Assembly (NCBI GenBank): GCA_030446715.1
Contig: JAUJMU010000006.1
Location: forward strand, 1 to 64,000
Direction: 5' to 3'
Source: Cytophagales bacterium
GTDB taxonomy: Bacteria; Bacteroidota; Bacteroidia; Cytophagales; 172606-1
DNA length: 64,000 nt
Shown here: piece after piece, positions 42,736-46,611 of the stretch
Layout of the letters: each line of letters starts with the position of its first letter
Numbering within the stretch: position 1 is the stretch's first letter
Program-made: the position numbers and the translations under genes
The notes under the pieces: model-generated
What the model was told of the DNA's origin: nothing
The model's input: the letters and a program-made list of their open reading frames with translations, nothing else
Database searches by the model: none

Positions 42736-42812
42736 TGTCATCCCCGGAGGGGATCCTTGTCAGGTACACCAATCGTTCACTTCAACTGCAAAGATCTCCT
42801 CCGGGGATGACA
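42736..42812. repeat. inverted-repeat element, GTCATCCCCG family (copy 4)
   Basis: The best-preserved copy: TGTCATCCCCGGAGGGGATC and, in reverse complement, TGTCATCCCCGGAGGAGATC followed by TTTG, around a 29-bp centre. It lies just past the leuS stop codon. Confidence 0.8.
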
Positions 42813-42875
42813 GATGAGAGAGCAGGCTGCTGACAGGCTTCTTACAACCCGGCAATAATTCCCCAACAACTACCC

Positions 42876-45800
42876 CTACAGCACCACGTTCACGATCCGC
42901 TTCGGCACCACGATTACCTTCTTGGGTTGCTTGCCCTCCAGCCACTTCTGTACGGCTTCCGCGGCCAGCACCGCCTGTTCGATTTCGGCCGGAGCCGTAT
43001 CGGCGGGGAAAGTCATTTTAGCCCGCACCTTGCCGTTGATGGAAACGGGGTATTCGAAGGAATCTTCCACCAGATACGACTGGTTGTAAGCCGGATACGG
43101 TTCCCTGGTTACGCTGCCGGTGTTGCCCAGCAGGTGCCAGATTTCTTCGGTGATGTGTGGCGCAAACGACGACAGCACCACCGTCAGGTCCGACAGCACG
43201 GCCCGCTTGTTGCACTTGGGTGACGACAGTTCATTGACGCACACCATAAAGGCGCTGACGGAGGTGTTCAGCGACAGGTTGTCAATGTCTTCGGCCACCT
43301 TTTTGATCAGCTTGTGGAGGCTTTTGAGTTCCTCTCTGGCCGGCTCGGCGTCAGATACCGTGAAGTCGCCCTTTTCGGTATGGAACAGCCGCCAGTACCT
43401 GCGCAGGAAGTTATGCACGCCGGTAATGCCGTTGGTATTCCAGGGCTTGGAATCGGTCAGTGGCCCGAGGAACATCTCGTACATGCGCAACGTATCCGCG
43501 CCGAAGCGGGTCACTACGTCGTCGGGATTTACGACGTTGTACTTGGATTTGGACATCTTTTCGACTTCCGAATATAAATCGATGTATTCACCTTTCTCGT
43601 CTGTTTTCCAAAGCACACCTGAATTAATATCAATCTCTATGTCATATGATTTGAACAATGGAGTATGCACAAATTCTTCAAAAGAACTCTTATATAGTTT
43701 TCCTGTGTCAGTATACTCAATAGGAATTCTTCTTCTCTTTTGAGAACCAACAATTTCTTTCCCCCGAAATTCTAAATGATGACTGTTTAAATGAGCACTA
43801 AAATAATCTGAGGAGGCACAGACAGTATACTCTTGTCCATGACCTATGGGATGAGTATATGTGTCGTGGTCAAAGCCTTTATAAAAATCAACAAAATAAG
43901 AATAACTGGAAATCATCCCCTGATTCACCAGCTTCCTAAAAGGCTCGTCCACGGTGACGTGGCCGAAGTCGTAGAGGAACTTGGTCCAGAAGCGGGAGTA
44001 CAGCAGGTGGCCGGTGGCGTGTTCGGAGCCGCCGATGTACAGGTCCACGTCCTGCCAGTACTGCCGGGCTTCTTTCGAGCAGAATTCGGTGTCGTTGTGC
44101 GGGTCCATGTACCGGAAGAAGTACCAGCTTGAACCGGCCCAGCCGGGCATGGTGCTCAGTTCGTAGGGGTAGGCCCCCCCGCCCCCGAAGGGGGAGCCTT
44201 TTCCTCCCCTCTCCTCAGGAGAGGGGCCGGGGGTGAGGTCAACTCCCACTTCGGGGGTTGGGGGGCAGTATTTCCAGTCTTTGGCGCGGCCCAGCGGTGG
44301 TTCGCCGGTTTGGGTGGGCTTGTACTGGTCAATTTCGGGCAGCACCAGCGGCAGTTCGCTTTCCGGCAGCAGGTGCGGAATGTCGTCTTTGAAATAGACC
44401 GGCACCGGTTCGCCCCAGTACCGCTGGCGGCTGAATACGGCGTCGCGCATCCGGTAGTTGATTTTTCCTTTCCCGATGCCCATTTCCTCAATCCGGCGGA
44501 TGGCGGCGGGTACCGCTTCTTTTACCGGCAGTCCGTTCAGAAAACCGGAATTGATCATGGTACCGGCTTTGGGATCGAAGTCGGGGGCGGAAATATCCGT
44601 CCGGTCGCCTTCCTGCACGGGCACGATGGACAGATTGAAGTGTTTCGCAAAAGCATAGTCGCGGGTGTCGGACGACGGAACGGCCATGACCGCGCCGGTG
44701 CCGTAGCCGGCCAGCACGTAATCGGCCGTCCAGACGGGAATGTCTTCACCGGTAAAGGGATGCTCCACGTAAAAGCCGGTAAAAGCGCCGGTAATGGTTT
44801 TTACCTCGGCCATCCGTTCCCGTTCAGAGCGGTTCCGGGCGGTTTCCACGTAAGAGACGAGGTTGTCATAGGTTTCCTGCAGCTCCGGATTCCGCGACAG
44901 TGCTTCTTGGGCCAGCGGCATCAGCCGTTCGTGCTCCGGGGCAATGACCAGGAAGGTAACGCCGAAGATGGTATCCGGGCGGGTGGTGAAGACTTCAAGG
45001 GCCTCATCCCCAGAGGACCTCACCCCCAGCCCCTCTCCTGAGGAGAGGGGAGCTGATGGAGCGTTGGCCTGAACGGATGGTTTTCTTCTTTTTTCCAGAA
45101 CGGCTTTGATTTTCTGAACAACGGCCGGGGTATTTCTGGCTACTTCTTCATTGGTGAACCGGATCACCCCGAATCCTGACTCTTCCAGCAACTGTGTCCG
45201 CCGCGTATCATACGCTGCCTGTTCCGCTTCCCGATGGATTCCTCCATCTACCTCCACGACCAGTTGTTCGTCAATTGCCACAAAATCAACTATGTAAGCG
45301 TTGATTGCGTGTTGCCTTCTGAACTTTGTACCAAGCTTCTGATTCCGAAGCTCGTTCCAGAGTATAGCTTCTGCCTCCGTCTGCTCTTTGCGCAATTCTC
45401 TTGCCTTTGGCTTGGCGTGCTGCCATTGTTCATGGCTGGAAGTGTAAGCAGGATTGACCTCACTCCCTGATCTCGCCTCCTCAGAGGGATATCCGGAACG
45501 CAGGTTGCCTTCTCCCCTCTCCTCAGGAGAGGGGCCGGGGGTGAGGTTCACTCCAAACCGCACACTCGCCCCCTCAGATCGCCCGATCCAGTTGCGTTGC
45601 ATTTCCTTCAGCGGCTCGGGCCAGTCGATGGTGTCGAGACCCCGCAGCAGCCGGTCGGCGTAGGCGGTGATGCGCATGGACCACTGCTTCATTTTCTTGC
45701 GTTCGACGGGGTAGCCGCCGCGTTCCGACACGCCGTCTTTCACCTCGTCATTGGCCAGCACCGTGCCAAGGGCGGGGCACCAGTTCACCACGGATTCGGC

Positions 45801-46427
45801 GAGGTAGGTCAGGCGGTATTTGAGCAGAATGTCGGCCTTTTCCTTTTCGGTATAGGCTTTCCAGTCTTCGTTGGTGAAGGCAAAGGTATCTTCGTCGCAG
45901 ACGGCGTGCACGTTGCGGTTGCCGGAGTGTTCAAACTTTTGGACCAGGGCGGCAATGGGCTCGGCCTTGTCAGTTTCCCGGTTGTACCAGCCGTTGAACA
46001 ACTGCATGAAAATCCACTGCGTCCATTTGTAGTATAACGGGTCAGACGTGCGGACTTCGCGGTCCCAGTCGTAGGAAAAACCAATTTTCTTTAACTGACG
46101 CTTATAGGTTTCAATATTATTAGCGGTGGTGACGGCCGGGTGCTGGCCGGTCTGGATGGCGTACTGCTCGGCGGGCAGGCCGAAGGAGTCGAAGCCCATC
46201 GGGTGCAGCACGCTGAAGCCCCGGCTGCGCTTATACCGGCTTACGATGTCGGAGGCAATGTAGCCCAGCGGGTGCCCAACGTGCAGCCCCGCCCCGGACG
46301 GGTACGGAAACATGTCCAGCACGTAGTACTTAGGCTTCGACGGGTCGTTTTCGACTTTATAAATCCCCTCCGCTTCCCACTGCTGCTGCCACTTCTTCTC
46401 TATTTCTTTCGGGTTGTAATCGGCCAT
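42876..46427 (-). CDS. leuS: leucyl-tRNA synthetase with two in-frame insertions
   Basis: Residue count is 1183 against about 920-930 for Bacteroidota LeuRS. It charges tRNA-Leu in the cytoplasm. The catalytic motifs are intact: HVGH at residues 49-52 and KMSKS at 957-961. The editing domain threonine-rich TTRPDTIFG and GTGAVMAVPSSDTRD are also intact. Insert 1 (about 294-470) contains a DUF559 nuclease-like domain between inverted repeats. Insert 2 (about 721-751) is a nuclease-free repeat (PGPSPEERGGKG) before YPYELSTMPGW. Residues about 834-952 are encoded by AT-rich DNA unlike the rest. Both inserts keep the frame, and none of the usual intein splice residues (N-terminal Cys, C-terminal His-Asn) is visible, so the product probably carries them. 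Confidence 0.9.
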   Translation of the reverse strand: MADYNPKEIEKKWQQQWEAEGIYKVENDPSKPKYYVLDMFPYPSGAGLHVGHPLGYIASDIVSRYKRSRGFSVLHPMGFDSFGLPAEQYAIQTGQHPAVTTANNIETYKRQLKKIGFSYDWDREVRTSDPLYYKWTQWIFMQLFNGWYNRETDKAEPIAALVQKFEHSGNRNVHAVCDEDTFAFTNEDWKAYTEKEKADILLKYRLTYLAESVVNWCPALGTVLANDEVKDGVSERGGYPVERKKMKQWSMRITAYADRLLRGLDTIDWPEPLKEMQRNWIGRSEGASVRFGVNLTPGPSPEERGEGNLRSGYPSEEARSGSEVNPAYTSSHEQWQHAKPKARELRKEQTEAEAILWNELRNQKLGTKFRRQHAINAYIVDFVAIDEQLVVEVDGGIHREAEQAAYDTRRTQLLEESGFGVIRFTNEEVARNTPAVVQKIKAVLEKRRKPSVQANAPSAPLSSGEGLGVRSSGDEALEVFTTRPDTIFGVTFLVIAPEHERLMPLAQEALSRNPELQETYDNLVSYVETARNRSERERMAEVKTITGAFTGFYVEHPFTGEDIPVWTADYVLAGYGTGAVMAVPSSDTRDYAFAKHFNLSIVPVQEGDRTDISAPDFDPKAGTMINSGFLNGLPVKEAVPAAIRRIEEMGIGKGKINYRMRDAVFSRQRYWGEPVPVYFKDDIPHLLPESELPLVLPEIDQYKPTQTGEPPLGRAKDWKYCPPTPEVGVDLTPGPSPEERGGKGSPFGGGGAYPYELSTMPGWAGSSWYFFRYMDPHNDTEFCSKEARQYWQDVDLYIGGSEHATGHLLYSRFWTKFLYDFGHVTVDEPFRKLVNQGMISSYSYFVDFYKGFDHDTYTHPIGHGQEYTVCASSDYFSAHLNSHHLEFRGKEIVGSQKRRRIPIEYTDTGKLYKSSFEEFVHTPLFKSYDIEIDINSGVLWKTDEKGEYIDLYSEVEKMSKSKYNVVNPDDVVTRFGADTLRMYEMFLGPLTDSKPWNTNGITGVHNFLRRYWRLFHTEKGDFTVSDAEPAREELKSLHKLIKKVAEDIDNLSLNTSVSAFMVCVNELSSPKCNKRAVLSDLTVVLSSFAPHITEEIWHLLGNTGSVTREPYPAYNQSYLVEDSFEYPVSINGKVRAKMTFPADTAPAEIEQAVLAAEAVQKWLEGKQPKKVIVVPKRIVNVVL
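43570..43925. other. AT-rich segment inside leuS
   Basis: By eye this stretch is roughly one third G+C, whereas the surrounding leuS DNA is near 57 percent. It corresponds to the variable region between the catalytic domain and KMSKS (the leucine-specific part). The reading frame is maintained. It fits replacement by DNA from a low-GC relative. Confidence 0.6.
44174..44265. mobile_element. nuclease-free repeat inserted in leuS
   Basis: A 92-bp element with outer arms CCCCCCCGCCCCCGAAG and CTTCGGGGGTTGGGGG. Its internal palindrome is CCCCTCTCCT / AGGAGAGGGG, followed by CCGGGGGTGAGGT. The same palindrome and tail appear at both ends of the nuclease-bearing insert. It encodes a Pro/Gly-rich loop in frame. 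Confidence 0.75.
45016..45549 (-). mobile_element. DUF559 nuclease insertion in leuS
   Basis: The ends are inverted: ACCTCACCCCCAGCCCCTCT reads inward from 45018, and ACCTCACCCCCGGCCCCTCT reads inward from 45546 on the other strand, each continuing into AGGAGAGGGGAG (about 35 bp, one mismatch). Between them, in the leuS frame, lies a Vsr-like DUF559 domain: RELRKEQTEAEAILWNELRN, then GTKFRRQHAINAYIVDFVAI, LVVEVDGGIH, and RTQLLEESGFGVIRFTNEEV. The acidic Asp (VDF) and Glu/Asp (VEVDG) positions of the PD-(D/E)XK fold are intact. Stand-alone DUF559 proteins are about 120 residues, so the domain is complete. It has no start or stop codon of its own that is needed; it is translated within LeuRS. 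Confidence 0.8.
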
Positions 46428-46460
46428 TGTCTTAATCAGAATTCACAGATGAACAGAATG

Positions 46461-46611
46461 TCAGAATCATAATTTTCAGGATTTACAGGATCAAAGGGTT
46501 GCAATCAGTTTAAATCCTCTTCATCCTCAAGGGAGATTGAATGGAGCAAAGGAATCGAATTAACCGGTATCCTGTTCGTCCTTTCATCCCGTAAATCCTG
46601 ATTCTGACGAA
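46461..46611. repeat. CAGGATTTACAGGAT inverted-repeat element
   Basis: GTCAGAATCATAATTTTCAG and TTTACAGGAT near 46463-46492 match, as reverse complement, ATCCCGTAAATCCTGATTCTGAC at 46587-46610. It fills the leuS-asnS gap, leaving little room for a separate promoter. Comparable words are dispersed in many Bacteroidota genomes. Confidence 0.6.

Follow-up and report, generated by a model that had tools for sequence, protein, structure and literature searches.

Mobile DNA in essential genes is thought to need splicing or an intergenic landing in order to survive. The leuS gene in the window (the whole stretch of 64 kb of Cytophagales DNA analyzed here) displays a nuclease domain within its open reading frame. 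This raises the question of what the insert is, how it came to be there and how an essential tRNA synthetase accommodates it.

The leuS gene and its nuclease insert

leuS is found at positions 42876–46427 on the minus strand and consists of 1183 codons. Its product matches TIGR00396 at 884 bits (profile search), and it is the sole full leuS in the 6.4-Mb genome. The inserted element, at positions 45016–45549 of the same strand, starts directly past residue 293 of LeuRS and adds about 177 codons, both end arms counted, with the frame kept. The spacing between the NWIG and TRPDT motifs is 208 residues in the window LeuRS versus 31–45 in 15 other genomes, i.e. those among 38 LeuRS loci whose flanks fitted the search pattern. 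The frame length, the insertion point and the size of the insert given in an earlier, sequence-only reading of this locus are thus borne out.

The DUF559 nuclease domain is located at positions 45096–45416 (minus strand), which corresponds to LeuRS amino acid positions 338–444. PF04480 matches here with an E-value of 2.7e-34 and LeuRS domains are present on both sides. An alignment of 41 of the 46 rows in the clade of this nuclease (see below) displays 16 invariant columns, including Q, D, ExDG and H, and all of these are intact in the window domain. The model of the domain has a pLDDT of 88.8. Its fold matches 3hrl (Z 15.7), the homing endonuclease I-Bth0305I (Z 12.0) and Vsr (Z 10.5), and profile matches are found to 3hrl (E-value = 4.8e-32) and I-Bth0305I (PDB 3r3p, E-value = 2.4e-6); the earlier description of a complete, Vsr-like domain agrees with these results. 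The dN/dS ratio of DUF559 is 0.02–0.18, in the range of the host enzymes, as calculated from the eight of 15 pairs with usable dS, where several dS values are near saturation. Judged by these ratios, the nuclease is under purifying selection.

The Pfam matches of the window LeuRS contain no intein or further extra domain, and an Rfam scan of positions 42800–46600 gives no match at E ≤ 0.1, i.e. no known intron RNA is found. The absence of intein and intron signatures had also been pointed out in the sequence-only reading. By its sequence, the leuS insert is apparently never spliced out.

An AlphaFold2 model of the chimeric LeuRS has a mean pLDDT of 79.1 and a pTM of 0.69. Residues 351–450 of the nuclease form a block with pLDDT values of 81–95, and residues 331–350 show only 51–62. 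The stretches at 300–334 and 450–473, which correspond to the translated arms and their surroundings, are below 50. Since the well-folded block sits between stretches of low pLDDT, the model suggests that the nuclease is a free lobe joined to LeuRS by low-confidence linkers; the sequence-only reading had proposed modelling to see whether this is so.

There is no Met codon in the insert and therefore the nuclease is presumably produced within the LeuRS polypeptide. Among 35 inserts analyzed from 60 codons before the domain to 12 codons into it, 22 have an ATG and 13, including the window insert, do not. An internal start for the window nuclease was thus rejected.

Palindromic arms and the nuclease as one unit

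The insert is bounded by inverted-repeat arms of 41 nt at positions 45012–45052 and 45512–45552 with a complementarity of 93%. The one-base difference between the ends that had been noted from the sequence concerns the inner 36 nt of the arms. Both arms are in turn palindromic, each consisting of an outer tag CCTCACCCCC and CCCCTCTCC..GGAGAGGGG; the palindrome sequence is CCCCTCTCCTNAGGAGAGGGG. The arm on the N-terminal side of leuS (positions 45512–45549) has the palindrome CCCCTCTCCTCAGGAGAGGGG with the outward tag CCGGGGGTGAGGT and is translated as LTPGPSPEERGEG. That on the C-terminal side (positions 45016–45052) is the inverted copy with one base different, and is translated as PLSSGEGLGVR. 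Single-stranded arm DNA can form a 9-bp hairpin, which is not significantly better than those of shuffled sequences (z −1.2 to −1.9). Survival in a protein loop requires an open frame across both arms, and two of the three frames of the window arm are open on each strand.

The palindrome is present in three copies in the 64-kb window, compared to none in 100 shuffles, and in 54 copies genome-wide with up to two mismatches, compared to none for a reversed control. The genome has one DUF559 match. The ends of the insert are thus members of a family of tagged palindromes with many copies, and therefore the element is REP/MITE-like rather than the lone nuclease that had been proposed; the palindromic nature of the arms, the 54 genome copies and a solo in-frame copy at a second leuS site had been missed. 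Among palindromes of the genome that lie less than 260 bp apart, the tags point outward in 14 of 14 distinct pairs, as they do in the nuclease element (32 own-genome loci were read and 15 pairs listed, one of them seen twice in overlapping loci). This is as expected of deletion derivatives, and close pairs without the nuclease may be internally deleted, non-autonomous forms of the unit.

Intergenic palindromes of the genome are embedded in larger repeats having a different outer motif, and another transposase might move these. At own-genome loci such as L007, L012, L016 and L137, palindrome pairs lie inside longer repeats with outer ends close to TACTACGGTACATT and AATGTACCGTAGTA. By their sequence, the longer repeats are MITEs of one family, which has an outer inverted repeat of its own. 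At L137 (G000:C25:85428-85760) a palindrome pair directly follows the end of a Y1 transposase gene, the sole such case in 30 Y1 loci.

The solo copy mentioned above, the third in the window, is at positions 44204–44240. It has no nuclease and is found in frame at a second LeuRS site (site B, the site of the nuclease insert being site A), between GEPPLGRAKDW and TMPGWAGSSW. An inverted-repeat pair (44173–44196 and 44243–44266) encloses it, such that the whole spans positions 44173–44266. Site B is 62 residues long in the window LeuRS and 33 in most relatives read. In one relative (L084) the same site has a DUF559 domain enclosed by a similar outer repeat pair, and for this reason the repeat pair around the solo palindrome at site B is probably the remains of an earlier element.

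Nuclease and repeats occur together well beyond this gene. Terminal inverted repeats above the 99th percentile of 987 control flanks are found at 36 of 59 testable DUF559 loci of the same order, and 23 of the 59 show no clear inverted repeat; three of the 118 loci read in all were left out of the repeat test for Ns or short flanks. GC-rich flanking palindromes are present at 34 of 61 DUF559 loci, in contrast to 16 of 610 control positions and one of 30 Y1 transposase loci, the latter being the best-scoring ones plus those of the window genome. Other inverted repeats are seen at ten of these 30. The sequences of arm and nuclease co-vary (r 0.40, reached in 0 of 2000 permutations); this comparison covered the 66 loci, out of 111, whose arms are clear, and excluded pairs with an identity of at least 75%. 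The correlation is 0.39 between families and 0.64 within them, and may reflect linkage rather than recognition.

Seven of 14 loci outside Bacteroidota exceed the repeat threshold, which was derived from loci of the same phylum and applied to these 14 unrecalibrated. They are two Chloroflexota, three cyanobacterial, one Sphingomonas and one Sinorhizobium meliloti locus. Those below it are from E. coli, Neisseria, Shinella, a cyanobacterium, Sinorhizobium and Azospirillum (two loci), some with one-sided palindromes. One pass is just above the threshold (29 vs. 28.1) and two loci are just below it (28.0).

Host proteins and movement of the inserts

DUF559 matches are present in 43 of 98 genomes of the same order and in 170 of 296 genomes of the phylum, the window genome counted in both. 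Frames of at least 500 aa contain the domain at 58 of 118 loci read; many of these were chosen for long frames (L166–L205 mainly so) and the in-frame share of the latter carries no meaning. An unselected set of the same order consists of 61 loci fetched out of 73 matches, window included, the 12 left out being nearly all among the weakest; here 27 of the 59 repeat-testable loci are in frames of at least 500 aa. The host proteins in the loci read are LeuRS (sites A and B), IleRS, MetH, RecG, a RecB/AddA-like helicase, IcmF, PurQ, HsdR and HsdM. The two LeuRS sites are recurrent. Host names were checked by profile for 18 proteins, and the rest were assigned by BLAST to those proteins or by eye. 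The sequence-only reading had suggested a search for repeat-flanked DUF559 domains inside other genes, and related in-frame inserts do occur, e.g. in IleRS, MetH, RecG, IcmF and RecB/AddA-like proteins; four RecG inserts are below the repeat threshold.

Among the best 80 named loci of at least 579 confirmed in species genomes, ranked by likeness to a window-led profile, 61 share one frame with another gene and 19 are stand-alone. The 61 shared frames of these best 80 are LeuRS (34), IleRS (4), IcmF-like (3), MetH (3), RecG (3), PurQ-like (2), AddA-like (1) and others (11), and all are Bacteroidota by record title. Two other titles in the best 80, Viridilinea and Anaerolineae (Chloroflexota), are both stand-alone. 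Ten of the 11 other hosts were scanned and represent an AAA helicase, Lhr helicase, MazG, YgbB, AMP-binding/ACAS, SpoU methylase, GH31, UDP-GlcNAc epimerase, aconitase-family and DegT protein. The match to the host domain is split in two around the insert in the AMP-binding, GH31, epimerase and DegT proteins. The nuclease is at the N-terminal end in the YgbB, SpoU and aconitase-family proteins, and in MazG it is between two matches of a family that has two.

The leuS frame at locus L232 (G398:C58) is 1386 aa long and displays DUF559 matches at two sites. The site A loop of six other loci (L244, L249, L251, L252, L260 and L261) contains different repeats, also in frame and inverted by eye, with the peptides VSSFKSQ or VLSPESLVQSE, as if this loop were a general hot spot where repeats insert. 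At ten RecG loci (L196–L198, L201 and L206–L211) DUF559 is inside RecG and the palindromes are seen by eye as faint linker traces. These are candidate domesticated cases; the repeat test among them covered the first four only. Carriage by plasmids or phages was rejected, as matches are few (39 of 72,556 plasmid records and two of 50,697 phage records) and all are below 60% identity. PADLOC gives weak matches only, and identity with a defence system was likewise rejected.

A DUF559 tree of 111 rows, seven of the 118 loci having been removed because of stops or short domains, places the window nuclease in a clade of 46 rows with support of 100/96. This clade takes in every LeuRS, IleRS, RecG, AddA-like, IcmF and PurQ row and all but one of the MetH rows. 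The LeuRS inserts do not form one clade (p-AU 2.35e-5; 0.023 for site A alone), and at least eight changes are required on a 45-row tree (at least six for site A alone). Inserts from different genes of one genome or family group together with moderate support, e.g. LeuRS and MetH of G086 (92/90), LeuRS and IcmF of family f23 (87/87) and LeuRS and AddA-like of family f26 (95/83). The tree groups were named after the first tree was seen, and the dS pairs described below were picked after identities were seen.

Filled and empty alleles are found within one genus. A RecG-type nuclease match is present in 48 of 121 sampled genomes, and 30 of these loci were read: LeuRS 11, AddA-like 7, RecG 6, MetH 5 and stand-alone 1. 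LeuRS itself was found in 116 of the 121 genomes, and in 30 LeuRS loci fetched a nuclease-length insert is at site A in five and absent in 25.

Divergence of insert and host was compared in seven LeuRS pairs of 91 and in one RecG pair. The insert dS is lower than that of the host in five LeuRS pairs and higher in two. In the same-site pair L213/L219 it is 0.34 compared to 1.40 for the host (p 3e-10), and the RecG pair L197/L198 has synonymous changes at two of 88.5 sites in the insert and 127.5 of 455 sites in the host (p 3e-9). The pair L217/L233 is reversed (insert 1.44, host 0.55, p 5e-6); the insert is more diverged than its host gene, and thus unrelated inserts replaced each other or arrived independently. 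In other pairs insert and host agree, e.g. L081/L085 with 0.41 and 0.49. Inserts at one site are in some cases much closer and in others much more distant than the genes that contain them, and their sequences thus indicate that the inserts move independently of the host genes.

Near-identical nuclease copies at separate places in one genome were not found among 34 loci of 13 genomes, where the best likeness is about 71% DNA identity over 300 nt. No recent jump of a whole element was therefore caught, and recent intragenomic transposition was rejected for this set. In two genomes short arm stretches are more alike (82–100%) than the nucleases; gene conversion of arms within genomes was not borne out over 23 same-genome pairs (p 0.87). 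A target-site duplication, which comparison with empty alleles might have revealed, was not recognized by eye at the LeuRS sites, where the empty sites are too diverged.

Origin of the insert and its relation to known elements

The leuS insert is probably a nuclease-palindrome mobile element that is kept as an unspliced extra domain, with spread that the nuclease would promote. It would be a single representative of a widespread mobile unit, which consists of a DUF559 nuclease gene of Vsr/EDxHD fold with an inverted, tagged palindrome on either side. Members of one nuclease clade are found in loops and linkers of housekeeping proteins of Bacteroidota, with the frame open throughout. The palindromes are translated as linkers rich in Pro, Ser, Gly and Glu and the nuclease would fold alone, nothing being spliced; with such linker-like arms and a self-folding nuclease the host enzyme is proposed to still work. 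A host gene that is essential and always expressed would keep the insert expressed and make its loss by deletion harder. The nuclease most likely has the palindromes or empty alleles as its target, and break repair and recombination would then copy the unit.

The sequence-only reading had proposed a mobile nuclease that lands in frame in an essential gene. Mobility, the open frame and empty alleles all agree with this, but the element is confined neither to leuS nor to a single site. Its likening to a homing element has fared less well. An endonuclease that cuts uninserted leuS at one target and is copied by repair would account for two recurrent leuS sites, for transfer of inserts between species at the same site and for the kinship with I-Bth0305I, and both empty and filled alleles and host-independent transfer are features of homing elements. 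However, related nucleases are found in different genes rather than at one fixed target per lineage. Strict homing to leuS is very improbable because the same nuclease clade occupies many unrelated genes and sites and unrelated nucleases share one site. Recurrence of the LeuRS sites probably reflects tolerance of the loop, since quite different repeats, as seen by eye, also occupy site A. An assembly chimera or annotation artefact is scarcely credible, as in-frame inserts are found at the same site in independent genomes, the frame is open and leuS is single-copy.

In an unlikely alternative, mobility would belong to the palindromes, with a Y1/RAYT or other transposase acting on them in trans and DUF559 carried as cargo in the manner of a composite transposon. 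The excess of palindromes over DUF559 in the window genome is as this would predict, as is the pair just downstream of one of its two Y1 transposases, and nine of 33 genomes with the main-type palindrome lack DUF559, the co-occurrence of the two being weak (24/33 palindrome genomes compared to 146/263, p 0.064, hand tally). Against it, the presence of palindromes does not track that of Y1 (24/33 compared to 186/263, p 1.0; nine of 33 have no Y1 match), other inverted repeats are far commoner than these palindromes at Y1 loci, and the supposed cargo is the same domain in several phyla and co-varies with the arms. With one of 30 loci and no co-occurrence, RAYT was rejected as the mobilizer. A domesticated fusion, in which the nuclease benefits the host (e.g. 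against phages or in repair) and is passed on together with the host gene, is decidedly unlikely. Strong purifying selection is consistent with it, the four RecG inserts without clear repeats retain an intact nuclease, which fits domestication too, and some pairs such as L081/L085 share the site and a similar divergence of insert and host. Yet presence is patchy with empty alleles inside one genus, the histories of insert and host conflict in tested pairs and in the tree, and the host proteins are many and unrelated, with weak PADLOC matches.

The nuclease-palindrome element displays likenesses to several known systems. Rickettsia palindromic elements (RPE) are palindromic repeats of about 150 bp with a conserved peptide, found in frame in unrelated protein genes (PMC10969869, PMC3733652). 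The palindromes described here are likewise inserted in frame in unrelated genes; the leuS-type unit differs in having its own nuclease, and the available portions of the RPE descriptions mention no nuclease gene. Homing endonucleases of the EDxHD/Vsr fold, e.g. I-Bth0305I, are related to the window nuclease by profile and fold. Known members are intron-borne or free-standing with extended DNA-binding parts (PMC3943268), whereas the window nuclease consists of the catalytic domain alone, is lodged within a host enzyme, has palindromic ends and lacks a splicing signal. The same domain is found in stand-alone DUF559 proteins (3hrl; NCBIfam PRK09767), but the window copy exists only inside LeuRS.

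The REP/REPIN sequences with RAYT are similar in being high-copy tagged palindromes, single or in opposed pairs, that are linked to one enzyme gene. Here the linked enzyme is a Vsr-like nuclease and not a Y1 transposase, the tag is CCTCACCCC/GGGGTGAGG and not GTAG or CGTC, and the inserts are within essential proteins. Of the 30 Y1 loci, one has the same palindrome next to the Y1 gene, in a pair confined to one side. CGTC REPs are reported to be without a dedicated transposase (PMC3733652); they were rejected as the same family, as a CGTCAT-type pattern is absent near nine DUF559 loci.

A search of open-access literature, covering titles and the openings of abstracts with subscription papers mostly outside its scope, found neither DUF559 with palindromes or inside LeuRS, nor a nuclease-bearing palindromic element resident in essential enzymes. 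There is a fair chance that the nuclease-palindrome element is a class of its own. A broader and more tentative proposal is that of a new mobile-element class in several phyla, the nuclease counterpart of REP/RAYT, in which DUF559 would recognize its own tagged palindromes; in Bacteroidota it may have become a permanent unspliced domain of essential proteins, the palindromes serving as both DNA ends and protein linkers.

Many species appear to retain such an element as an added domain of tRNA synthetases, methionine synthase and repair helicases. One class of protein-coding palindromes would thereby gain a candidate enzyme partner, and the "unknown function" family DUF559 a testable function; the element also suggests a natural route by which proteins may gain domains. 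DUF559-LeuRS frames in the databases would represent recurrent invasions and not one conserved architecture.

Two further features of LeuRS were noted in the relatives. In G004 leuS (L133) a degenerate DUF559 is found at residues 637–727, a third LeuRS site near the leucine-specific region, with EIKG in place of E(V/I)DG; this is perhaps a dead or domesticated remnant. At positions 43600–43880 of the window (leuS residues ~850–943), the LeuRS matches of many relatives are interrupted between residues 849 and 944, and those of G019, G023, G026, G027 and G032 continue across. By sequence comparison, the leucine-specific region preceding KMSKS is of at least two types among the relatives.
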